A DNA stretch of 51,439 bases, taken from the NCBI GenBank assembly GCA_003576755.1, contig QEVT01000004.1:1-51439 (forward strand). Reading direction: 5' to 3'. How positions within the stretch are numbered: position 1 is the stretch's first letter; each line of letters opens with the position of its first letter. Below, piece after piece: positions 34,212 to 46,704 of the stretch. The translations under genes were made by a program, and so were the position numbers. The notes under the pieces were generated by a model. It was not told the origin of the DNA, did no database searches, and worked only from the letters and a program-made list of their open reading frames with translations. The stretch comes from a bacterium (GTDB lineage: Bacteria > Chloroflexota > Anaerolineae > Epilineales > Epilineaceae).

Positions 34212-36440
34212 CTAGGGCAGCTGCAGCGCAGGATCGCCGAGCAGCAGGAACGTCTGCATCACGTCGCGGCCGCCCGGCGCGTCGGTCGGCACGGCGCGCC
34301 AGGCGTCGAGCACCGCATCGCCCAGGCGGGCGTGGCGACCGTCGGTCAGCCCCTGCGCCAGGGCATGTGCGAGCGCGCGTTGGTCTCCGGCCAACGTGAG
34401 GCTGGTCGGCGCGAGCGCTGCCACCGCCCCTCCGTCTTCGTCCCACAGCATGGCTTCTGCCAGCGCGTCGAGCGTGGGGTGGGTGAACAGACCGGTGAGG
34501 CAGGTCAGGTTGAGCACGATCGGGAGTCGCGGCGCGTTGGCCAGGCTCGGGACGTCATCGACCGTGAAGATACGGTCCTTGCCCCACTGGTTCACGCTGC
34601 CATGGCCGAAGTAGGCGAGCACCCCCACGCCCTCGTGCAGTCGGTCGCGGACCGTGTCGGTCATGCCGCCACCGTCGGGCGGGGCGGTCAGCACGGTGCC
34701 GGCGTACGGCCGCGCCATCGCGGCGAGGAAGCGCTCGGCGTCGTCTTCGAACGAGACTTCCTCCCCGTCCGCCACCGCCAGCACACGGGTCCGCCAGTCG
34801 GCGTCGCCGGCGGACTCGTAGGCCAGGATCTTGGCGACGAGGACGTCTACCTGCGACGACGAGCGGGCCGGGATGCGCCCGATGGCCAAGTCGGGCACGA
34901 GATCGCCGTCGAGCCGGGCAAACCCGACGTCGCTGCCGGTCTGGCCGCCGAAGACGGTGCGGATGAGGAAGGTCGGCAGACGGTTGGCGGCGGCGGGTAC
35001 GGTGAAGCCGCGGGGGTCGAACGTCGCGTCACCGACGAGCACCACGTAGCGCGGCGCGGGTCGCCACGCGGCGTGCGCATGTCGCAGGAACGCGCGGATG
35101 CCGTCGGGTTCGGCTTGGCCGTGCCCGAACTGATCGAACACCGCGGCCAGCGGTACGGCCGTCGCCTCCAGCCCCTGCGCACGACGGTGCGCCGCGAGCG
35201 GCTCGAGTGCGGGCAGGAGGTCCGCCGGCCCGATCGCCAACCAGTCGGCTCCGCGCGCCGGGGCACGGAGGTCGGGGGCGAGTGTGGCAGGCTCGATGCG
35301 GTCCGGCGTGCGGGCGCTGCCGGCCACGGCGGCCGCATAGCGATGGCCCGGCACGGTTCGCAGCTGATGGGGGGGCGTGCGGTCGGTGTGCTCGGTCTCG
35401 GCCGGGCCGTCGCCTGGCTCGACGTCGACGGCCACCGGTTGCGCGGGGTCCGTCACGTCCCAAACCGCCGGCACGCCGCTGAAGCCCACCAGGGTCACCG
35501 AAGGGCCAAGCGGGGCAGTGAAGGCGAGGCGACCGTCGTCGGCACGGGCCGGGCGAGGATGATCCAGCGCGATCCAGTCCAGGATCGGGATGTCGACGGC
35601 GACCCCGGCCACGCCGGGGGTATCGACCGCGATCGCGTTGGCGCCCGGGCGCAGCACGCCGTCTGGGAGCACGGCATCGACGACGTGGCCGGTCCGGCCG
35701 TCCCACGTGTCGTCGGCGGCCGGACGGCCGTTGACGGTGATCCGCACGCGGTGGTCGGGCGTCGCCGGCGCCTCGGTGGCGCCCCACAACGCCACCCGCA
35801 GTCGCGACGGGCCGGCGGCAAGCGCGCCGACGGTGGCGGTGAAGACCTCGGTTCGAGGGGCCGGAAGCGCACGCCACAGCCACGGGTCGCCGTCGCCCCG
35901 TTCCGGCTCGTACACGGCGTTGACTTCGGCGTGCACCGTGGTCAGCACGATGCTCCCGTCGGCAGCGGCGGGTCGGTAGGCCTCCGCAAAGCGGTCTGGC
36001 GTGACGGCAGGGCCGACCGGCGATGGTGCCCGGGCAGCGTCGGTCCCGGGAGCGATCCAGTACACGTGTTCCGCGCTGTCCTGGCCAGGGTTGCGCGTGC
36101 CGTAGAACGCCAGGGTGAACCCGTCGCGCGACGTCGTGACGCGCAGCGGCTGTGCCCGCCCCCGCAGGCGCAGCGTCAAGGTCGCCGGATCGATGCCGGT
36201 CCATCCGAGATTCCGGGAAAGGTCGCGGGCGGTGATGCGATACACCCCCGGGTGCGAGACGACCATCCGTCCCGCGGCGGCCGGTGGCGGGGTCGCGGCA
36301 CGGCAGCCCGCGGTGGCCATGACGAGCGCGACCACCGGCCACAAGGCGACCGCCACGCCCTTGACGAGAACGTCGACCCGATTCCGCGGCGACCGTCGCC
36401 GATCCCCGCCCGCCGTCCGCCGTCGCGGTCCGGCGATCAT
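34212..36440 (-). CDS. C25 (gingipain/PorU-like) cysteine peptidase, lipoprotein
   Basis: 742 residues from ATG 36440, which overlaps the preceding gene's stop (ATGA). A basic start precedes a hydrophobic segment ending in a lipobox-like MATAGC, so it is probably a lipid-anchored exoprotein. The middle is beta-rich; the Peptidase_C25 catalytic domain holds H613 in YFGHGSVNQWG and C647 in LNLTCLTGLF, the His-Cys dyad, 34 residues apart exactly as in the other C25 protein. The family includes gingipains (Arg/Lys-specific) and PorU, the sortase of type IX secretion. The substrate here is unknown. It is the last gene of the minus-strand unit and has no PT-rich tail; it ends LLGDPALQLP, as C25 domains often do. 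Confidence 0.88.
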   Translation of the reverse strand: MIAGPRRRTAGGDRRRSPRNRVDVLVKGVAVALWPVVALVMATAGCRAATPPPAAAGRMVVSHPGVYRITARDLSRNLGWTGIDPATLTLRLRGRAQPLRVTTSRDGFTLAFYGTRNPGQDSAEHVYWIAPGTDAARAPSPVGPAVTPDRFAEAYRPAAADGSIVLTTVHAEVNAVYEPERGDGDPWLWRALPAPRTEVFTATVGALAAGPSRLRVALWGATEAPATPDHRVRITVNGRPAADDTWDGRTGHVVDAVLPDGVLRPGANAIAVDTPGVAGVAVDIPILDWIALDHPRPARADDGRLAFTAPLGPSVTLVGFSGVPAVWDVTDPAQPVAVDVEPGDGPAETEHTDRTPPHQLRTVPGHRYAAAVAGSARTPDRIEPATLAPDLRAPARGADWLAIGPADLLPALEPLAAHRRAQGLEATAVPLAAVFDQFGHGQAEPDGIRAFLRHAHAAWRPAPRYVVLVGDATFDPRGFTVPAAANRLPTFLIRTVFGGQTGSDVGFARLDGDLVPDLAIGRIPARSSSQVDVLVAKILAYESAGDADWRTRVLAVADGEEVSFEDDAERFLAAMARPYAGTVLTAPPDGGGMTDTVRDRLHEGVGVLAYFGHGSVNQWGKDRIFTVDDVPSLANAPRLPIVLNLTCLTGLFTHPTLDALAEAMLWDEDGGAVAALAPTSLTLAGDQRALAHALAQGLTDGRHARLGDAVLDAWRAVPTDAPGGRDVMQTFLLLGDPALQLP

Positions 36441-37537
36441 CCGCGGCGCAGAAGCCGCGTGACCCGCCACGCCAGGACCACGAACACCAGGCCCATCAGC
36501 GTGATGGCCAGCGGCCGAGAGCCCGCGGGGGCAGCCGCCGGGGGATTGCCCTGCCTCTCGTGCGGTGCGGGGATGCGGTCGTCCGGGGCGGCGGCCTCGC
36601 GGGTCGCGGGCGCGCCGGGATCGTCGGCGGCGGGGGCCCCGCTCGCATCACCCGGCCGGCCGACGTCGGTGCCCAACCGTCCGCCCGCGGCAACGCCGGC
36701 TGTGGTCGGCGGTGCTTGCCCCATGGGCGACGCGGCGGCCTCGCGGGTCGATGGACTGCCTCCCGACGGGCGGGCTGGCGGGCTCGAGACGACGGAGCCG
36801 AGCGGCGCTCCGCCTGCAACTCCGGTCGCCGGCATCGGCTCGCCGCGCCCGCCGCCTGCCGTGCTCACGGGCCGAAGGTACGAGGTGGTCGCCGCAGGTG
36901 CCGGGGTGGGCGATGGCTGGCTCGTCGCAGGCTTGACAGTACGGGTCGGAGCCGATCCCGTCGAACGGCGCGTCGCCGCCGCCGTCGGCGGCGGCCCCGC
37001 CGAAGGCCCCGTCGTGCTGGTGGCGACCGGCGAGGGCTGGTTGGGAGGAGTGCGGCTCGCCGTTGCGCGAGCCGTGCGATCGGGTGGCGGCGTCGCGGTG
37101 CTTGTGGCCTCCGCGTCACACGGCACGCCGTCCAACCGCGCGCAGATCGGGCCGTGGAAGGTGGTGTGCTGGTCCGCCGCCCGGTCCTCGAGCGAGTAGA
37201 AGTACGCGACGCCCGGGCTCACCTGGGCATCCGTCCAGGCATAGCGGTCGCCGACGATGGTGGTGCCGGTGGCGGGGACGAAGGCGCTCACGCGGGCATG
37301 CTGGTTCAGATCCGCGGTCGCGCCACGGCGGACCCAGAAGCCCACCGTGTCCATCTCGGTGCCCGTCTCCCACGTCACGACGATGGTCTGGCCCTGCGCC
37401 CGGGCCGCGAAGTTGGTCAACGTGATCGACGCCGCGGCCGGTGCCGTGCCCGCCAACACCGACAGCACGAGCACCGCCGCCGCAACCCGCCATGCCGCCC
37501 GGCCGCCGTGTCGGAACCCCGCGACGAGGCAGGTCAC
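36437..37537 (-). CDS. Exported protein with FN3-like domain, Pro/Thr stalk and C-terminal membrane anchor
   Basis: 366 residues from GTG 37537, which overlaps the PqqD stop (GTGA). A signal peptide (VAAAVLVLSVLAGTAPAAA) leads to a ~95-residue beta-sandwich with TIVVTWETGTEMDTVGFWVRRG and GVAYFYSLEDR, a pattern common beside C-terminal sorting domains in Bacteroidetes and Chloroflexota. A long TP/AP-rich stretch follows, then a C-terminal helix (PLAITLMGLVFVVLAWRV) and a basic tail TRLLRRG. That three-part ending resembles CTERM-type sorting signals. It is sandwiched by 4-base overlaps between pqqD and the C25 peptidase, so tight co-expression is expected. It could be a substrate or a cofactor of that peptidase. 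Confidence 0.8.
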   Translation of the reverse strand: MTCLVAGFRHGGRAAWRVAAAVLVLSVLAGTAPAAASITLTNFAARAQGQTIVVTWETGTEMDTVGFWVRRGATADLNQHARVSAFVPATGTTIVGDRYAWTDAQVSPGVAYFYSLEDRAADQHTTFHGPICARLDGVPCDAEATSTATPPPDRTARATASRTPPNQPSPVATSTTGPSAGPPPTAAATRRSTGSAPTRTVKPATSQPSPTPAPAATTSYLRPVSTAGGGRGEPMPATGVAGGAPLGSVVSSPPARPSGGSPSTREAAASPMGQAPPTTAGVAAGGRLGTDVGRPGDASGAPAADDPGAPATREAAAPDDRIPAPHERQGNPPAAAPAGSRPLAITLMGLVFVVLAWRVTRLLRRG

Positions 37538-37851
37538 GGGTCGCCGCTCGCAGCCTCGCCTGGATGTGCGGATGGCTCGAGCATGAGCAAGGACTTCGCC
37601 TCGAGGTCGGCGATGAAGGCGAGCGTGTCCGCTTCCGCGCGCTCCTGCTCCACCTCGTACTCGAGGCAGATCTCCGCGACGATGCTCCTCACCGTCCGCG
37701 TGCCGTCGGCCAGCTGCCAGACCCTGGCGCCGACGTCGTTGAGCACCTTGATCTGACCATGGTCCGGTTGCAGCAGCACGGCTTCCTCTCCGACCATGCT
37801 GGTGGTGACCGTGGTGGCACGAACCGGCCGATGGTTGAGCGTGGGCGTCAC
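37534..37851 (-). CDS. PqqD-family peptide-modification chaperone
   Basis: 105 residues from GTG 37851, chosen for the strong Shine-Dalgarno CCAGGAGC about 9 bases upstream and for the family's usual length (~90-100). PqqD proteins bind leader peptides and present them to modifying enzymes (a RiPP recognition element). The core is EEAVLLQPDHGQIKVLNDVGARVWQLADGTRTVRSIVAEI, ending in the typical helical LEAKSLL. PqqD-like proteins occur with HprK-like kinases and nucleotidyltransferases. No radical SAM enzyme is in the window. A candidate leader peptide is at 43083-43289. Confidence 0.9.
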   Translation of the reverse strand: MTPTLNHRPVRATTVTTSMVGEEAVLLQPDHGQIKVLNDVGARVWQLADGTRTVRSIVAEICLEYEVEQERAEADTLAFIADLEAKSLLMLEPSAHPGEAASGDP

Positions 37852-37895: not shown

Positions 37896-38471
37896 CTAGC
37901 GGACGGGCCTCAGAGTGGGCAAGCGGACGAGCTGGCGCGTCAGACGCCGAAGCACACCGGCCGACAGGCGAGCAAGCCGTGCGGCAGGCCCCTCGGCTCG
38001 AGCGCCGAGCCTGCGCTCGAGGCTGCTCGAGGCACCGACCAGCCGATTGGCCATCGTCCACCGGGTTTGACGGAAGTCGAGCATCCGACCGCGCCGCTCG
38101 GCCGACACGACCTTGCCAAGGATGGCGGCGGCGGCGACGGGCGGGTCGGCTTCACCGACGTTGTCGCCCTTGGTATGCCAGCCCTGGCTGTCGACTGCGA
38201 TCAAGCGGTGGGTCAAGAGGTCTTCAGCCAATCGCACGAGCACGAGGTCGCCGCACTGCAGCCGCTTCGCGGGCATGGGTTCCACCCACACGAGATCGCC
38301 GTCGTGCAGAAGCGGAGCCATGCTGTGCCCGACCACGCGCAGGCGAAGTCGGCCATTCTCGCGCAGCGAGGCATGCGCCAGATCCAGCACCGTCGGCGAA
38401 TGGTACGGCCGACGCGCCGGCCGAGTCGGCGGCGCGCGGTCCGGGCGAGTGACATCGGTCATCGACAGCAT
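37896..38471 (-). CDS. S24/S26-like serine peptidase (signal-peptidase fold), soluble
   Basis: 191 residues. The catalytic Ser is S50 in RVVGHSMAPLLHDGD (box B of type I signal peptidases). Box D is DLLTHRLIAV, with H88 where the bacterial enzyme has Lys, so this is the Ser-His type found in SipW, archaeal and ER peptidases. Box E is TKGDNVGEADPPV. No membrane helix is seen at either end, unlike ordinary signal peptidases, so it may act in the cytoplasm, perhaps on a leader peptide. It begins 15 bases after the large C25 gene ends and 44 bases before pqqD. An extended -10 sits right before the ATG. Confidence 0.85.
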   Translation of the reverse strand: MLSMTDVTRPDRAPPTRPARRPYHSPTVLDLAHASLRENGRLRLRVVGHSMAPLLHDGDLVWVEPMPAKRLQCGDLVLVRLAEDLLTHRLIAVDSQGWHTKGDNVGEADPPVAAAAILGKVVSAERRGRMLDFRQTRWTMANRLVGASSSLERRLGARAEGPAARLARLSAGVLRRLTRQLVRLPTLRPVR

Positions 38472-38480
38472 CGAACACTT

Positions 38481-38489
38481 ATCATATCA
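38481..38489 (-). promoter_or_regulatory. Extended -10 promoter before the S26-like gene
   Basis: TGATATGAT on the minus strand (TGn + TATGAT) overlaps the stop codon of the C25 gene. Transcription would start about 7 bases downstream, right at the ATG, so the transcript may be leaderless. Confidence 0.5.
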
Positions 38490-41400
38490 CATGCCGGCGA
38501 TCTCGTCCGCCGCGACCGCCGGTCGAGGGCGGGAGCGAATCCGCCCGTGCCGCCGGTCGGGGCGCGCACGGCCGGCCGACGCTCCCGTGGGGGTGGCGTT
38601 GTACAGCGCCGGCAGGTACACGCTGCCGCGCCGACCCTCGACCGTGGGGGTAGCCCCTGGCGTCGGCGGCGACGCCGGCGTGGTGCGTGCCGCCGTCGAC
38701 GTCGGTGTCGGCTCGAACGGACCGACCGGCACCGGGATCCGCAGCGCCGGGTCACCGAACAACGTGTAGGTATGCAGCAGGTCGACGTTGGCGCCCGACC
38801 TGAACAACCGCAGCTTGGCGGCCACGGTTGCCGGCCCGAAGATGGTCTGGCCCGCGCCGTACACCGCGTCGTAGAACCCTGCCTGCAGCAGCTCGTGCCC
38901 CGTCATGACCCCGAGCCCGGTCGGCGAGAACGTGGCCACCGCCCCGGCGCGGGGGAGACGGACCAGGCTCTCGGCCATGCTCTGCCACGCGGGATAGCTC
39001 CAGTACCCGTCGAGGCACGTCCACGACAACACGATCGGCAGATGCTCGCCGTTGCGGAGCGTGGCCAGATGGGCCGTGTTGAGCATCTGCTCATGGCTCC
39101 ACCAATCCACCTTGCCGTGCCCGACGAAGTTGACCAGCAGCGCGCCGGTGATGTTGAGATGGCGCGTGATGGCTTGGCTGGCCTTCGCGCAGGCCGTGCC
39201 GTTGGTGCATGCTCCCGCGTCGATGAAACGGTCGAGGAAGATGCGGTCGGCGATCGCCCCGTCGGGGAGGTTGCTCTCGATGAAGCGCGCCGTGGCGCCG
39301 GCGAAATCGCCGGCCGCGTCGACGATCCCGGGCCGCACGAAGGTGTTGTCGGCGATGAACAGGTGCCGGCGGCCCCATGCCTGCGGTCCCGGCGCCTCGT
39401 AGGCCACGATCTTGTCGATGACGGCGTCGAGCTCGGCGGCCGTGCGGACCGGCAGTCGGCCGATCGCCACGTCCGGCATCGGATCGGCGCCGACGACGGT
39501 GGCCAGGCGGTTGGCGCTGTCGACCTCGCCCTGGACCGGGTCCACCCACTCCAGGTTCGGTGGCATCAAGATCGGGCTGGGATCGGCATGGGCTGGATGG
39601 CCCAGGAAGTTCCAGTGGCCGTCGCCGACGACCACGACGTACGCCGGCACCGGGGTCGGCCAGGTGGCCATCGCCCACGCGAGGAAGTTGCGGATGGCGC
39701 GCGGGCCGAAGATGCCGTGGTTGAAGGCATCGTAGAGGTCTTCGACGTCGACGACGGCCACGCGCAGCCCCTGCCGAGCGCGGTGATCGGCCAGGCGCTG
39801 CGCAGCCGCGTGCAGGCTGCGCGGGGTGACGACCACGTGGTCGGCGCCGGCGCCGGGCTGTGCCAGCGGCGAGGCCGGCAGCCAGGCGACGGCGGCCGGT
39901 GCCCGGTAGCCACCGGCGGCGGCGGCAACGAATCGGGCGTCGCCCGACGATTGGAAGGCCGCGGCATGGCGGTTGCCTTGCGCCGTGACCCGGGCGCCCG
40001 TGATGCGCACCGGGCTGTTGGGCCGAGTGATGTCGAAGACCTCGGCATCGGGCGTCGTGAAGCCGTCGACGTCGTAACGGCGTGTGCTTGCATCCAACGC
40101 GTCGAACGCCAACGCATCGGCCTCGACGGCGAGGCGTCGCGGGTAGGTCACCTCGAACCAGTCGAAGTACAAGGTGTCGCCCGTGGTCCCCGGCTGGAGC
40201 CGGGGATCCACCAGCAGCCGATTCGCGCCGTCGCGAAGTGCGGCGGCCGGGACTTGGCCCTGGAACGCGAACCGCGTCGCGCCGTCCCAACGGGCTTCCT
40301 GGACCACGGTGCGGGGGTCGTTGAACATGAACCGGACGTGGTGGTCCGGCGACCCGGCCGCCGACGCGTTGGCCACGATCTCGCCGCGCACCGTGGCGCC
40401 GGCCGCGCCCACGGCGACGCCGGGCAGCGTGATCGCGAACGACTTCGAGATCGGCACGGCGGGATCCGCCTCCACCACACGGAAGAGATGCCACAGCCAA
40501 ACGTCGTCGCTGGTGAAGTGGCGCGTGAACCACACCTTCGACTCCTCCGCGCGCACGGTTGAGCGGGCGTAGGCGGCTGCGGCGGTGTTGGGCCGTGGCG
40601 CGCCGTCCCGCGTGCCCATTCGGGCACCGCGTTGGCCGCCCGCGGCGAGCCAGTACACGTTGGTCTGGGTGTAGCGCGCGTCCCCCAGCGTGCCGGAGAT
40701 CGGCGTGCCGAGCCAGTCGATGGTGGAAGGAGGGCTCCGGAACGGCTCACCGTAGAACACGACGGCGTCGGTGGCGTCGAACCGCCCGTCCGATTCGCCG
40801 ACGACATGGATGGCGACGGGTTCGCCGCGGTTCGTGAGCGCGAACGTACGGGGATCCACCGCATCGACGTCCATGCCGGCGGCTTCGAGGTCGTCGTGGC
40901 CAAGCCGGTACAGCCCCGGCCGATCCACCGAGACCTTGAGCCGCGGTCCATCGCCGGCCTGGGCGATGGACTGCCGTGCGTCTGCCAGCGCCACCGCGTC
41001 GACGTGTTGGGCGAAGACGGCCCGGTCTGCCCGCCAGGCGCGGGCCTGGTCGCCGTTGGCCAGGCCGTGGCGCAGGAGGCGGTCGAACGGCTCGACGGCG
41101 CCCCGGTCATCGGCTGGGCGACCGGGCGTCATCGCGGCTGACGTGCCATCGCCCGGGGCCGCGAACCGGAGGGTCGCGCGGACCCGTCGGTGCTGCACCA
41201 GCGCGTGGCGGACCGCGTCGAACCGGTAGGGGCGAAAGGTGACGCGGACGACGCGTTGGTCGCGGACCCAGGCTTCGCCGGCCAGCGCGGCCGGCGCGTC
41301 GGGCCGCAGGCCACGCGGGTGCGCCACCTTGCCCTCGGCGGCACCGGACGGCGGTCCGGCACGCCAGCCGGCCGTATGGTCGGGCGTGCCGGTTTGCCCC

Positions 41401-41789
41401 ATCGATCCCGGGACGGCCCGGACGGCGTCCGTCGAGACATCGAGCGCGACGTCGGCACCGGGCGGGACGCCGACAAGCGCCGTCACGGCCGGGAGCGGCG
41501 GTCCGCCGCCTGCATCCGGCCATGTCAGCTCTCCGACGCCGGCCGCTTGGGGCTGGCCGGCCCGTGCCATCTCCGCCATCTCGGCCGCATGGATCAGCGC
41601 GGGCGCGGTGAGCTCGAGGCTCACGCCCGACGCGTCGGCCTGCACGAGGCGCACCGTGGGCTGCGCCGGACCGGGTGCCGCCGCACCCGGATTCGGCATC
41701 GAGAGGCCATGAAGGATGACCATCGCGAGGGCGCAGAAGCCCACGGCCCCCCCGAAGGCGGCGTTTCCGAGTGGATTGCGATGCTGCAT
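38487..41789 (-). CDS. Large C25 (gingipain/PorU-like) cysteine peptidase with Pro/Thr stalk and YLP tag
   Basis: 1100 residues. A signal peptide (GGAVGFCALAMVILHGLSM) precedes a propeptide-like region, a beta-rich middle and the C25 domain, with H891 in VNFVGHGKVDWWS and C925 in LSWTCLDGYWS. Its length and domain order recall PorU, the C25 sortase that removes sorting domains in type IX secretion. After ~residue 1040 there is a TP-rich stalk, then VYLPALYNA and a basic tail (~40 residues). The ATG follows GGGGAG at 6 bases, a strong Shine-Dalgarno. It is 103 bases after the HprK-like gene on the same strand. PorU function is not shown; no other type IX genes are visible. Confidence 0.88.
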   Translation of the reverse strand: MQHRNPLGNAAFGGAVGFCALAMVILHGLSMPNPGAAAPGPAQPTVRLVQADASGVSLELTAPALIHAAEMAEMARAGQPQAAGVGELTWPDAGGGPPLPAVTALVGVPPGADVALDVSTDAVRAVPGSMGQTGTPDHTAGWRAGPPSGAAEGKVAHPRGLRPDAPAALAGEAWVRDQRVVRVTFRPYRFDAVRHALVQHRRVRATLRFAAPGDGTSAAMTPGRPADDRGAVEPFDRLLRHGLANGDQARAWRADRAVFAQHVDAVALADARQSIAQAGDGPRLKVSVDRPGLYRLGHDDLEAAGMDVDAVDPRTFALTNRGEPVAIHVVGESDGRFDATDAVVFYGEPFRSPPSTIDWLGTPISGTLGDARYTQTNVYWLAAGGQRGARMGTRDGAPRPNTAAAAYARSTVRAEESKVWFTRHFTSDDVWLWHLFRVVEADPAVPISKSFAITLPGVAVGAAGATVRGEIVANASAAGSPDHHVRFMFNDPRTVVQEARWDGATRFAFQGQVPAAALRDGANRLLVDPRLQPGTTGDTLYFDWFEVTYPRRLAVEADALAFDALDASTRRYDVDGFTTPDAEVFDITRPNSPVRITGARVTAQGNRHAAAFQSSGDARFVAAAAGGYRAPAAVAWLPASPLAQPGAGADHVVVTPRSLHAAAQRLADHRARQGLRVAVVDVEDLYDAFNHGIFGPRAIRNFLAWAMATWPTPVPAYVVVVGDGHWNFLGHPAHADPSPILMPPNLEWVDPVQGEVDSANRLATVVGADPMPDVAIGRLPVRTAAELDAVIDKIVAYEAPGPQAWGRRHLFIADNTFVRPGIVDAAGDFAGATARFIESNLPDGAIADRIFLDRFIDAGACTNGTACAKASQAITRHLNITGALLVNFVGHGKVDWWSHEQMLNTAHLATLRNGEHLPIVLSWTCLDGYWSYPAWQSMAESLVRLPRAGAVATFSPTGLGVMTGHELLQAGFYDAVYGAGQTIFGPATVAAKLRLFRSGANVDLLHTYTLFGDPALRIPVPVGPFEPTPTSTAARTTPASPPTPGATPTVEGRRGSVYLPALYNATPTGASAGRARPDRRHGRIRSRPRPAVAADEIAGM

Positions 41790-41892: not shown

Positions 41893-42792
41893 TCAGGCGG
41901 GTTCGAAAGCGGGCAGGTCGGCGGGCACCGGGGCCGGTGCGATGAGGGGCCAGAACGACGGGTCTGGGCGGCAGTGCAACCGGCCAAACGGTACGGCGCG
42001 CACGATCGCGTCGGCGCGCGCCATCAGGCGGGCGGCGCGGTCGGGGTCGAGACCCACCACGGGCGCGCTTGCGACGAGGTCGGCCACGGCCGTCGCCGCA
42101 TCCACGCGTTCGATCGCTGCAGCAGGCGCGTGGACCAGACGGTAGATGCCACCGAGCGGTGCCCACCGCGGCCCGCTCGGCGCGATCTGCGTCGGGTTCG
42201 AGAAGGGCGTGCTGAACGCGGACCAACCGGTCGGGCCGGGGCGCAGCACGATCAAATCGTCGTTGAGGGTCGCACCGGCGGAGTGCCGGGCCACCGTGGT
42301 CTTGCCGCTCCCCGACGGCCCGACGAAGGCGTACGCGACGCCGTCGCGCACCACGCCGGCCGCGTGCAGCAGCAAGCCATCCGCATCGACGGCCAGCAGC
42401 GCCACACACAGGCGCAGGAAGTAGTCGGTGTGCTCGGCGGCGCGGGCGCCGGTCAGCCGAAGGTCCGCCACACCGTCGGCGACGTCGATCTCACCAGCCC
42501 GGCCCGGAGCGCGATGCACGAGAACCCCGCGTGCGAATCGCGTACGCTCGCCTCGATCGTCTCGAGCGCTCGGCCAATCCCCTTCGGTGCCCTCGCTCTC
42601 GTCGTCGGCGTCCGACCAATGGACCCGAACCTTCATCGAGGGGGCGGCGGCGACGCGGTACGCCGCGTAGCGCGCGTCGAGCGCACGGCTCGGGAGCACG
42701 GCGTCGAACGCCACCGACAGCCTCAGGCCGGCGATGTCGAGCGTCCAGGAAGGCGGTTGGTTGTCGCGTGGTTCCGAGATGGTGCTCATCAT
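41893..42792 (-). CDS. HprK-related serine kinase-like protein
   Basis: 299 residues from ATG 42792 (ATG 42789 and 42822 also possible). The P-loop is VGPSGSGKTTVARH (~157-170), preceded by LLLHAAGVVRDGVAY, the usual strand-and-His of HprK-related proteins. LNDDLIVL follows as the Asp-Asp motif. It lacks the HPr-kinase N-domain and no ptsH is near, so it is unlikely to act on HPr. Members of this group occur in lasso-type loci, where one phosphorylates a peptide's C-terminal Ser, and in PqqD/nucleotidyltransferase cassettes. Target here unknown; the precursor-like peptide 290 bases upstream is a candidate. Confidence 0.85.
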   Translation of the reverse strand: MMSTISEPRDNQPPSWTLDIAGLRLSVAFDAVLPSRALDARYAAYRVAAAPSMKVRVHWSDADDESEGTEGDWPSARDDRGERTRFARGVLVHRAPGRAGEIDVADGVADLRLTGARAAEHTDYFLRLCVALLAVDADGLLLHAAGVVRDGVAYAFVGPSGSGKTTVARHSAGATLNDDLIVLRPGPTGWSAFSTPFSNPTQIAPSGPRWAPLGGIYRLVHAPAAAIERVDAATAVADLVASAPVVGLDPDRAARLMARADAIVRAVPFGRLHCRPDPSFWPLIAPAPVPADLPAFEPA

Positions 42793-43082: not shown

Positions 43083-43289
43083 TCAGCGCTGCGACCCGGC
43101 GGCAGTCGGATCCCATGGATTCTGCGTCTGGCCGGAAACCGGGTCTTCCAGGAACAGCGGCGATCCCGCGCGCGCTTCGATCTCTACCTCGTGAATGATC
43201 GACGGGGTGCGGTAGGGCTTACGCAGCGAAGCCGCTCGCGGGCTTGCCGATCGCTCGTTCGCGATGCGGCGGGTCTCCATTGGCGTCAC
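43083..43289 (-). CDS. Candidate RiPP precursor peptide (KPYRTP leader motif)
   Basis: A frame from GTG 43289 to the stop at 43083-43085 codes 68 residues; ATG 43280 gives 65. GGAGGG lies 4 bases before the GTG. In the 65-residue numbering, the leader has KPYRTPSIIHEVEIE (21-35); Y23-x-x-P26 matches the YxxP motif that PqqD-like leader binders recognise in lasso-type precursors. After ARA comes GSPLFLEDPVSGQTQNPWD, which would be a core if cleavage is before Gly39. It lies between the nucleotidyltransferase and HprK-like genes, on the same strand. Evidence is short motif and context only. A -2 Thr, usual for lasso leaders, is absent. Confidence 0.5.
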   Translation of the reverse strand: MTPMETRRIANERSASPRAASLRKPYRTPSIIHEVEIEARAGSPLFLEDPVSGQTQNPWDPTAAGSQR

Positions 43290-43556: not shown

Positions 43557-44714
43557 TCATCGAGCGCGGCGCACGGCCTTGAGCCAGCGATAGACGTAGT
43601 AGCCCGGCGCCAGCCACGGGTGCCGGATCGCATAGCGACGTCGCATGTACGCCAGGGGCGGGACGAGCTTGGCCTGCACGTAGCGGGCCCGCATCGACCA
43701 TCCCGGAGTGTAGGCCAACACGACGCGCATCTCCGACCACAGCCCGTGCCGCTGGCGCTCGACGGCGGCCGCGGCACGGTGCTCGTCGGCCGAGGGGGTG
43801 AGCGCGGCCACGGTCCGAAGCACGGCGGACGGGATCCTTCCGGGCGCGGGCACGGCTGGCAGGATGCGCTGCAACGGCAGGACGAGGTCGCACGCCTCGG
43901 CCAGCCCCAACAGCGCGGGCCAATCGAAGGCGTCGCCCTGGTGCACGAGGACCTCGGCGATGTCGTGGAGCCAGCGCAGGGCGAGGCCTTGGCTGTCGGG
44001 GTGGTGCAGCGCCAGGTGGGCGCAGAGATGCAGCACGGTGGCTTCCGGGCTCAGCACCACCGCGGCGGCATCACCGACCGTCACGGGCCGGGCCGAACGC
44101 CAGAACGTCTCGACGGGAAGACGATGCCGGTAGGGCGGCCGGTCCACGAGGGTCCAGTGCAGGTCGACGATGGCGTGTGGCGGCGCTTGCCGGCGCAGCG
44201 TCGCCTGGCCCCCGAACGCGACGATCGCCTCGACGTCGGCGCCTGCCTTGCCGCGCTCCGCGAGCTCGTTGTTGCCCACCACGAGGTCGTACCCGTGCGC
44301 CCGCACGGCGCCGATGGCGGCCGAGGCGTGCTCCGGCGGCACCAGGATGTCGACGTCGCCGAGCGTTCGCAACCCGATGTGCTCGTAGACCGTCAGCACC
44401 AGGGCCGCGCCCTTGAGGAGCATGACGGGGATGCCGACGCTGGCCAGGGCGCCGATCAGTCGGGCGAGCTCGACCATCAGCCACGCGTTGGCCGCTGCCG
44501 TGTGGTAGTAGCGGTCGCGCAGGTGCTCACCCAACGCATCCGGCAGCGCCACACCGGCCTTGGTGACGACGTCGTACACCAGCGGCTCGACATCGTGCGC
44601 GTGCGCCGCCGCGGCGATGGCCGCCCACGGCCGCGCGGTCGTGGGGTCGAGGCGCACGCCCGGCTGCCGCGCGGCAAGGATGTCCAGCAGCGCCTCGGGG
44701 GTCGGACGCCGCAT
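43557..44714 (-). CDS. Nucleotidyltransferase family protein (NTP_transf_5-like)
   Basis: 385 residues from ATG 44714. The signature is PVMLLKGAALVLTVYEHIGLRTLGDVDILVPPEHA: K101-G-A-A-L and the metal-binding D120-x-D122 of a pol-beta-type fold. Conserved later parts include VDLHWTLVDRP and LCAHLALHHPDSQGLRWLHDIAEVL, typical of family PF14907. These are the nucleotidyltransferases found beside PqqD and HprK-like proteins, and in the paeninodin lasso locus; their reaction is not settled. The gene is 58 bases downstream of the DsbA-like gene and 267 bases upstream of the candidate precursor, all on one strand. Confidence 0.88.
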   Translation of the reverse strand: MRRPTPEALLDILAARQPGVRLDPTTARPWAAIAAAAHAHDVEPLVYDVVTKAGVALPDALGEHLRDRYYHTAAANAWLMVELARLIGALASVGIPVMLLKGAALVLTVYEHIGLRTLGDVDILVPPEHASAAIGAVRAHGYDLVVGNNELAERGKAGADVEAIVAFGGQATLRRQAPPHAIVDLHWTLVDRPPYRHRLPVETFWRSARPVTVGDAAAVVLSPEATVLHLCAHLALHHPDSQGLALRWLHDIAEVLVHQGDAFDWPALLGLAEACDLVLPLQRILPAVPAPGRIPSAVLRTVAALTPSADEHRAAAAVERQRHGLWSEMRVVLAYTPGWSMRARYVQAKLVPPLAYMRRRYAIRHPWLAPGYYVYRWLKAVRRAR

Positions 44715-44772
44715 GACCCGGTGCGACAGGCCGCCGGGCACGCCAAGGGCGTCATGGCGCACGGAGGGTGCC

Positions 44773-46704
44773 TTACGGCGCCGCCGTCTCGACCGCCTGG
44801 GACCGGGCCGCGGCGATGGCCGCCTCGAAGCGATCGAGTGGCTGTGCGCCGCTGAGCAGTTGTCCGTTGATGAAGAACGCCGGGGTGCCGCTGACACCGA
44901 GCGCCGCGCCTTGTGCCTGGTCGTCGAGCACGGCCTGCCTGTGCGTTCCAGCCTCGACGCAGGCCTGGACCGCTGCGCCGTCGAGGCCGGCCCCATCCGC
45001 AACGTCGGCGAAGGCGGCCGGGTTGCCCGACCAGTCGCTCTGGCGCTCGAAGAGGGCACGGTGCATGGTCCAGAAGCCCGTGTCGCCGCCCTGGTCGCGG
45101 GCGCAGCGCGCCGCCTCGGCGGCTTGGATGGCCTCCGGATGGATGGTGTCCAACGGGAAGTCCTTGAACACATAGCGGACTTGACCGGTCTTGACATAGC
45201 GCGCGACGATCTCGGGATAGACGGTCGTCGTGTGACGCTGGCAGAACGGGCACTGGTAGTCCGAGAACTCCACCAGCGTCACCGGGGCTTCGACCTCGCC
45301 TTGGGCCGGGGCGTCCCCGAGGTCCACCGCGGCGGGGGTGGCCGTGGCTGGCGGCGTGCCGAGGATCTGCGGCTCGAGCGTGGCGGCCAAGTCCTTCGGA
45401 ACCTCCATCGTCAGCTTCTCGCCGCGCTCGAGCTGCTCGATCATGTCGCGCAGCCCTTCGAGCGGCGGCACGCCGGCCCGGTAGTACCCGTTGACGAAGA
45501 ACGTCGGCGTGCCGTTGATGCCGATCGACGTCGCCTGCTGGACGCTGGCTTCGACCTTGGCGGCGTGCGTTCCGGCCGTCAGGCATGCCCGGAGGGCCGC
45601 GCCGTCCAACCCGCCGTCGGTGGCGAACCGGGCGAACACCTCGGCCGGATCGGGCAGCTCCGACCACTCGGCCTGGCCGGCGAACAGGGCGTCGTGCATG
45701 GCCCAGTAAGCGTTGTCGCCGCCCTGGTCGCGCGCGCAGTGCGCGGCCGCGGCCGCGGCCGGCGCGTTGGGGTGGATGCTGGTCAACGGGAAGTCCATCC
45801 ACACGTGCCGCACCCGCCCCGTGGCCACGAACTCCTCGACGTAGTCGGGGTAGACCTCGCTCGTGAACTTGGCGCAGAACGGGCACTGGTAGTCCGAGAA
45901 CTCGATGACGGTCACCGGCGCGTCGGGCTCGCCCTGGCTGGGGGCACCGGCGGCATCGATGTCGTACGTCGGGGCCGTGATCTCGACCATCTCCGGCGTG
46001 GGCTCGACGGTGGCGGTGGGCAGTGTTCCGCCGGCCACCACGATGTCGAGGCTGGTCTTGAACTCCTCGAACGGAAGGGCGCCCTGAAGGATCGCCCCCT
46101 GGACTTGAAAGCTCGGCGTGGCGCCGAGGCCGAGCCGTGTCGCCTCGGCAAGGTCGGCCTCGACCGCCTCGGTCTGTTGTCCTTCGTCCAGACAGGCCGC
46201 GAACGCGGCGGCGTCGATGGCGGGTTCGACGTCCAGCCCGGCGGCAAGCGACTTGAACATCTCGCCGGCGGCGTCGTTGCCCGACCACTCGTCCTGGGTC
46301 TTGAAGAGCTGGTCGTGCATGCGCCAGTATGCCGCGCTCCCGCCCTGCGCCCCGACACACCGCGCGGCCTCCGCGGCCTTGGTGGCTTGTGGGTGGATTT
46401 GCACCAGCGGCAGGTCGCGGAAGATCACCTTGACCTGCCCGCTGTCGACATAGGTCTCGTCGATCCGGGGCGCCGTCTCGGCGAAGTGCTGGGCGCAGAA
46501 CGGGCATTGGTAGTCCGACCACTCGACCAGCGTCACCTTCGCGGCGGGGTCACCCTTGACCATGTAGGCCGGCACGCCGTCGATGGTGCCGCCGCCCGCC
46601 GGCGCCGCGCCATCGTTGCCGGCGGGTGTGAAGGCTTGACAACCGGCGAGCACGGCTGCGGCCAGCAGGCCGGCGGACGACGTGCGATGGGGGATCCGGC
46701 GCAT
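44773..46704 (-). CDS. Lipoprotein with three tandem DsbA-like thioredoxin domains
   Basis: 643 residues. A signal peptide with lipobox VLAGC (Cys22) anchors it outside the membrane. Three Thioredoxin_4/DsbA-type domains follow, each with SDYQCPFC: C67/C70, C274/C277 and C485/C488, spaced 207 and 211 residues. Each also has a cis-Pro loop: GATPSFQVQG, GINGTPTFFVNG and GVSGTPAFFING. Domains 2 and 3 and their linkers are PT/AP-rich. Single-domain DsbA-like lipoproteins are common; three copies in one chain is unusual. It likely forms or repairs disulfides in exported proteins. No DsbB or VKOR partner is adjacent. Start at 46704 has no clear Shine-Dalgarno. A plausible promoter is upstream. Confidence 0.93.
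   Translation of the reverse strand: MRRIPHRTSSAGLLAAAVLAGCQAFTPAGNDGAAPAGGGTIDGVPAYMVKGDPAAKVTLVEWSDYQCPFCAQHFAETAPRIDETYVDSGQVKVIFRDLPLVQIHPQATKAAEAARCVGAQGGSAAYWRMHDQLFKTQDEWSGNDAAGEMFKSLAAGLDVEPAIDAAAFAACLDEGQQTEAVEADLAEATRLGLGATPSFQVQGAILQGALPFEEFKTSLDIVVAGGTLPTATVEPTPEMVEITAPTYDIDAAGAPSQGEPDAPVTVIEFSDYQCPFCAKFTSEVYPDYVEEFVATGRVRHVWMDFPLTSIHPNAPAAAAAAHCARDQGGDNAYWAMHDALFAGQAEWSELPDPAEVFARFATDGGLDGAALRACLTAGTHAAKVEASVQQATSIGINGTPTFFVNGYYRAGVPPLEGLRDMIEQLERGEKLTMEVPKDLAATLEPQILGTPPATATPAAVDLGDAPAQGEVEAPVTLVEFSDYQCPFCQRHTTTVYPEIVARYVKTGQVRYVFKDFPLDTIHPEAIQAAEAARCARDQGGDTGFWTMHRALFERQSDWSGNPAAFADVADGAGLDGAAVQACVEAGTHRQAVLDDQAQGAALGVSGTPAFFINGQLLSGAQPLDRFEAAIAAARSQAVETAAP

Follow-up and report, generated by a model that had tools for sequence, protein, structure and literature searches.

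The closest described system to the one reported here is that of the linear polyphosphorylated peptides (LPP), which are encoded by the lpp clusters of Bacillota and were described in 2026 as restricted to that phylum and of unknown role (Popov et al., Nat Commun 2026, PMC13381572). An LPP cluster encodes a SipW-like S26 peptidase, a PqqD-like RRE, an HprK-like kinase, an NTP transferase and an MsbA-like transporter, and its precursors carry the motif YxxPxVLxHQxIxFETxxS (PMC13381572). The leader peptidase LppS requires S29, H68 and D93 for cleavage, residues D70 and N33 of LppB hold Tyr-16 and Pro-13 of LppA, and LppK adds phosphate to Ser3 of the core several times (PMC13381572). A second point of comparison comes from lasso peptide clusters, in which homologues of HPr kinase phosphorylate the C-terminal Ser of precursors.

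Four of the five LPP core genes (S26 peptidase, RRE, HprK-like kinase and NTP transferase) are found together in the window, by which we mean the whole 51,439-nucleotide stretch analyzed here, from an Anaerolineae assembly that is 81.7% complete. Along the minus strand, the genes run NTP transferase (43557..44762; PF14907, E 1.9e-53), precursor peptide (43083..43289), HprK-like kinase (41893..42792; Walker A GPSGSGKTT and a DD motif), a PorU/gingipain-family protease, C25a (38487..41789), an S26 peptidase of the archaeal/SipW type that lacks a membrane segment (37896..38471), the PqqD-like RRE (37534..37851), a secreted, membrane-anchored protein with an FN3-like domain (36437..37540, start approximate), and a second C25 protease, C25b (34212..36470). 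The locus thus takes in the surface protein, the peptidase and both C25 proteases, none of which the initial annotation of the frame had connected with the peptide. Directly upstream of the NTP transferase gene is a triple thioredoxin/DsbA-like protein of the Rcas_1661 family (44773-46704, minus strand), and similar proteins occur near C25 and surface-protein genes in two relatives (L139 and L165). No MsbA-like transporter was found among the cassette genes (34.2-46.7 kb); ABC exporters are encoded elsewhere in the genome, and also beside the peptide in one relative (L040).

The likeness to LPP extends to the peptide, which has a YxxP leader with Tyr at -16 and Pro at -13, hydrophobic residues at -11, -10 and -5, and a Ser near the core N-terminus, with no cyclase encoded nearby; in some relatives of the window polysaccharide genes lie beside the cassette. 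However, this family belongs to Chloroflexota rather than Bacillota, its junction falls between AxA and G rather than after FET, its conserved Ser is Ser2 rather than Ser3, the HQ and FET elements of the LPP motif do not match, and its gene sets include two C25 proteases, a surface protein and, in sibling cassettes, radical SAM enzymes. We call the system LPP-like, with LPP as its closest known counterpart, and not proven LPP: four of the five core genes and the leader geometry agree, and the phylum, junction, transporter and C25 proteases differ.

The initial annotation, made from the letters of the DNA, had proposed the frame as a RiPP precursor, and translation bears out its description of 65 to 68 residues with a Shine-Dalgarno GGAGGG and a Y-R-T-P motif. 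Translated from the minus strand, 43083-43289 gives VTPMETRRIANERSASPRAASLRKPYRTPSIIHEVEIEARAGSPLFLEDPVSGQTQNPWDPTAAGSQR and a stop, with 68 residues from a GTG at 43289 or 65 from an ATG at 43280. GTG suits the ribosome site somewhat better, since GGAGGG lies 4 nt ahead of it and 13 nt ahead of the ATG. Although the frame is open upstream to 43520, a short start is likely because the conserved homologues are only ~31-70 residues long. The same genome encodes a paralogue (C94; L031:2-160, plus strand) with 59% identity (E 9e-11); QNPWDP is C-terminal in both copies, and a gene for a 609-residue lipoprotein-like protein follows the paralogue. Between the two copies, 12, 6 and 17 differences fall at codon positions 1, 2 and 3 across 28 codons, with third positions changed most, the pattern of a translated gene. 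We considered a spurious open reading frame and rejected it, given the paralogue, the homologues in relatives and the third-position-rich differences. Thus, judged on its sequence, the frame is a real gene, with a precursor peptide as its predicted product. No Pfam or NCBIfam model matched the window peptide, nor did any PDB entry; only one of ten peptides from relatives gave an NCBIfam match, far under the cut-off, and Rfam, promoter and terminator scans found nothing. Our literature searches found no published description of these peptides.

A profile search (E<=0.01) detected homologues in 39 of 150 related genomes of Anaerolineae, counting the window's own, and a one-sequence search (E<=0.1) in 44 of 150; these genomes are mostly drafts. 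A draw across the whole phylum recovered the family in only 7 of 400 genomes; therefore, the peptide family is concentrated in Anaerolineae. A scan of named genomes with the window peptide as lone query found no relative. A scan with a tighter alignment found 20 loci, all in Chloroflexota; where the lineage of these named contigs is resolved, it is Anaerolineae, Anaerolineales or Thermoflexales. At syntenic loci the homologues have a conserved leader and a variable core, so that the check proposed in the initial annotation holds, and neither of the outcomes that it gave as speaking against its proposal, the lack of a homologue at the corresponding place in relatives or frame-breaking changes there, was observed.

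The leader part (43167..43289, minus strand) contains the YRTP motif (43203-43214) and ends E-A-R-A at the predicted cleavage site, and the 27-residue core part, GSPLFLEDPVSGQTQNPWDPTAAGSQR, occupies 43086..43166. In 83 distinct peptides, the Tyr or Trp of [YW]xxP stands at -16 and the Pro at -13, at a constant distance from the junction, which has Ala at -1 in 77/83, Gly at +1 in 68/83 and mostly Thr, Ala or Val at -3. Three core types share this one leader. Type 1, to which the window peptide belongs, comprises 64 peptides without Cys that begin GSPL and continue in a variable tail; conservation is confined mainly to GSPL, with Ser2 in 57/64. Type 2 cores have two Cys around a Gly-Lys stretch and a C-terminal Ser in 12 of 13, the latter as in the kinase-modified lasso precursors; the last residue of the window core is not Ser. 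Type 3 peptides have a WxxP leader, a core that begins with Gln or Asp and usually one Cys near the end. Two of the three types are accompanied by a radical SAM enzyme, whereas the window's type is not.

These comparisons bear on the suggestion of a lasso peptide, which the initial annotation had raised with a Tyr and Pro one residue off the lasso rule. The positions it gave relative to the Gly of the RA-GSPL junction, -16 and -13, are correct, as are the acidic residues at core positions 7 and 8 (Glu7 and Asp8), but the lasso hint is not supported, and the spacing is exactly that of LPP and not a deviant lasso spacing. Paeninodin- and pseudomycoidin-type lasso clusters do share with this locus the RRE, the HprK-like kinase, the NTP transferase and the [YW]xxP leader, and a lasso precursor might be served by a cyclase and a B2 peptidase encoded elsewhere, given three Asn-synthase-domain (PF00733) matches at other places in the genome. 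However, no B2 leader peptidase (PF13471) was found in this genome, at 81.7% completeness, or in most peptide-bearing genomes, the window locus has no Asn-synthetase-like cyclase, and an acidic residue is present at core positions 7, 8 and 9 in only 16, 10 and 12 of the 64 type-1 peptides, leaving no fixed ring residue. Thus, we rejected a lasso pathway for this locus, and consider a lasso precursor with remote enzymes very improbable.

The surrounding gene set recurs with the peptide. A cassette of peptide, C25a, S26, PqqD and C25b is found in several relatives (L053, L054, L055, L058 and others), the surface protein lies between PqqD and C25b in many peptide loci, and L099 has the order HprK, peptide, C25a, S26, PqqD, C25b. 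In the type 2 order (L134, L135 and L137), HprK, PqqD and a radical SAM/SPASM enzyme precede the peptide, C25a, S26 and C25b; at other loci HprK/PqqD or HprK/PqqD/radical SAM genes adjoin the peptide. Sibling cassettes with the same leader and two-Cys or GGFC-type cores were seen in L133, L134, L135, L137, L139, L141, L144 and L149, with a radical SAM/SPASM enzyme identified by Pfam in L133, L134, L137 and L149, and radical SAM profile matches adjoining the peptides of L135, L139, L141 and L144. A profile search found no radical SAM enzyme of the cassette family in the window's own genome. HprK was found in 35 of 39 genomes with the peptide and 18 of 111 others (P 1e-16), and C25 in 39 of 39 and 65 of 111 (P 4e-8), in both cases with genomes treated as independent though they are related.

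The best evidence that the PqqD-like protein is the peptide's partner is the paired change in RRE and leader sequences. The RRE residue at the Tyr-binding position of LppB is Asp with Tyr leaders in 25/25 cases and Ser with Trp leaders in 5/6 (P 3.5e-5, uncorrected for kinship), and the Asn is kept in 40/41. In an alignment of the window RRE to the LppB structure (9X8Z), both the Tyr-binding Asp and the Pro-binding Asn are kept. The proposal that the peptide is the substrate of the PqqD/kinase/NTP transferase set is thus well supported by the leader and core pattern at syntenic loci, the association with the kinase and the Tyr/Trp-Asp pairing. We also considered that the peptide might be an unmodified, conserved small regulatory or structural protein, with the RRE and kinase acting on some other substrate. 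Modification of the peptide is only predicted, type-1 loci have no radical SAM enzyme, and some copies are distant from the genes for the kinase and the RRE. Nonetheless, the co-variation with the RRE, the constant junction spacing beside a variable core and the strong co-occurrence with the kinase make this explanation quite unlikely, and we think that the encoded peptide is probably modified.

The SM, HR and GD..D (Ser/His/Asp) motifs are intact in the S26 proteins, and a membrane segment is absent from most of them. The window protein matches TIGR02228 (E 7.9e-12, 45.3 bits, against a cut-off of 51.85). Four of the frames are long, with an S26 part that overlaps or continues into a membrane-anchored protein. 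We infer that S26 probably removes the leader, the role of LppS in LPP, because its motifs are kept, it mostly lacks a membrane segment and the junction is AxA-like. Cleavage by an Arg-specific C25 protease after the Arg of RAG was rejected: R-2 is replaced by Phe, Gln, Met, Thr, His and others in 40 of 83 peptides. With this position variable and A-1 nearly fixed, an S26-type AxA cut fits better. The N-terminus of the window S26 protein (38390-38412, minus strand; RRPYHSPTVLDL) has a YxxP-like stretch that weakly matches the peptide profile (E 0.7); this region is not conserved in S26 homologues. Adjoining or near two type-2 cassettes is a B2-like PF13471 protein (G113:C124:70725-71075 and G138:C71:2223-2555); therefore, some siblings may use another leader peptidase.

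By sequence, the assignment of the kinase to HprK is weak, with its motifs joined by weak NCBIfam matches. An AlphaFold2 model (pLDDT 82.8) matched PEPCK structures (E about 1e-6); the structures listed as sharing its fold are of PEPCK, not of HprK itself, and HprK has the same fold as PEPCK. Several type-1 cassettes have no nearby kinase, and none was detected in 4 of the 39 peptide-bearing genomes; like the weak HprK assignment, the Ser at position 2 rather than 3, the window core's lack of a terminal Ser and the lack of an MsbA-like transporter, this counts against the LPP-like reading. Ser2 of the core (43161-43163) is the predicted candidate for phosphorylation, by analogy with the lasso kinases and LPP. 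The kinase and RRE also resemble ScmC and ScmD of the SynChlorMet system, and in relatives of the window the cassette gains a radical SAM/SPASM enzyme, but the ScmC and ScmD matches are weak (17.6 bits against a cut-off of 125 and 34.7 against 100, respectively), and the window cassette has a pair of C25 proteases and no radical SAM enzyme.

Over its catalytic region, C25a resembles PorU and gingipain R and retains the His891/Cys925 dyad. It differs from the PorU of type IX systems in scoring below the cut-off of the NCBIfam PorU model (NF033707; 247 bits against 420), in having no other type IX component in the locus and in being tied to genes of a RiPP pathway. Our literature searches returned nothing relevant that links C25, PorU or gingipains to Chloroflexi or to RiPPs. 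Many of the relatives' peptides are encoded directly downstream of secreted proteins that end in a shared tail, P-T-A-[VI]-x-L-x-x-[FLM]-x-A followed by a transmembrane stretch and an Arg/Lys cluster. This tail, with examples in L034, L041, L051, L063, L066, L090, L097, L134 and others, resembles a sorting signal, and no NCBIfam sorting model scored above cut-off in the examples scanned. For 25 of 87 peptides, a same-strand tail gene ends no more than 400 bp upstream, compared to 1.5% of random positions, a count that is partly circular because the tail profile was built from these peptide-neighboring proteins. Moreover, tail and peptide share one open frame in two cases (L032:9246-12131, minus strand; L170:3872-6127, plus strand), which may be assembly errors. 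The company of gingipain-type proteases and cell-surface proteins suggests that the peptides act at the cell envelope, and a link between the two is likely.

If the peptide were mainly a part of surface-protein processing, as a docking tag or attached group, PorU-like C25 proteases would process or join the proteins with the PTAVTL, transmembrane and RRR tail. The upstream tail genes, the two fusions and the presence of C25 in every peptide-bearing genome favor this explanation. Against it, apart from the origin of the profile and the doubt over the fusions, the window's own genome has no tail detectable by that profile, the tail is matched in 82 of 150 genomes, many without a detected peptide, and cassette copies often lack an adjoining tail gene. 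We consider it unlikely, if less so than the other alternatives. A version in which the RiPP pathway feeds surface-protein sorting, such that leader removal exposes an N-terminal Gly or other small residue and PorU-like C25 transpeptidases join the modified core to PTAVTL-type C-terminal signals, is also doubtful; if true, it would mean peptide-decorated or peptide-anchored surface proteins in Chloroflexota.

We conclude that the window gene is likely to be the precursor of a linear, LPP-like RiPP of Anaerolineae (Chloroflexota). Sequence shows the gene, its division into leader and core, the gene set and the pairing of RRE and leader, while phosphorylation and cleavage are drawn from the LPP and lasso literature. 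In the pathway that we propose, the PqqD-like RRE would hold the leader by Y-16 and P-13, and the core would be phosphorylated by the HprK-like kinase, most likely on the conserved Ser2 of GSPL, with a phosphate that the NTP transferase may extend. The S26 peptidase, a soluble enzyme placed by the RRE, would cut after Ala-1, between E-A-R-A and G-S-P-L, and the freed 27-residue core would then work at the cell envelope alongside both C25 proteases and the membrane-anchored surface protein. A related, distinct system in Chloroflexota would widen the LPP class beyond Bacillota, and the C25 partners, together with the adjacency and fusion to surface proteins, would give the unexplained role of LPP a testable direction, the cell envelope.
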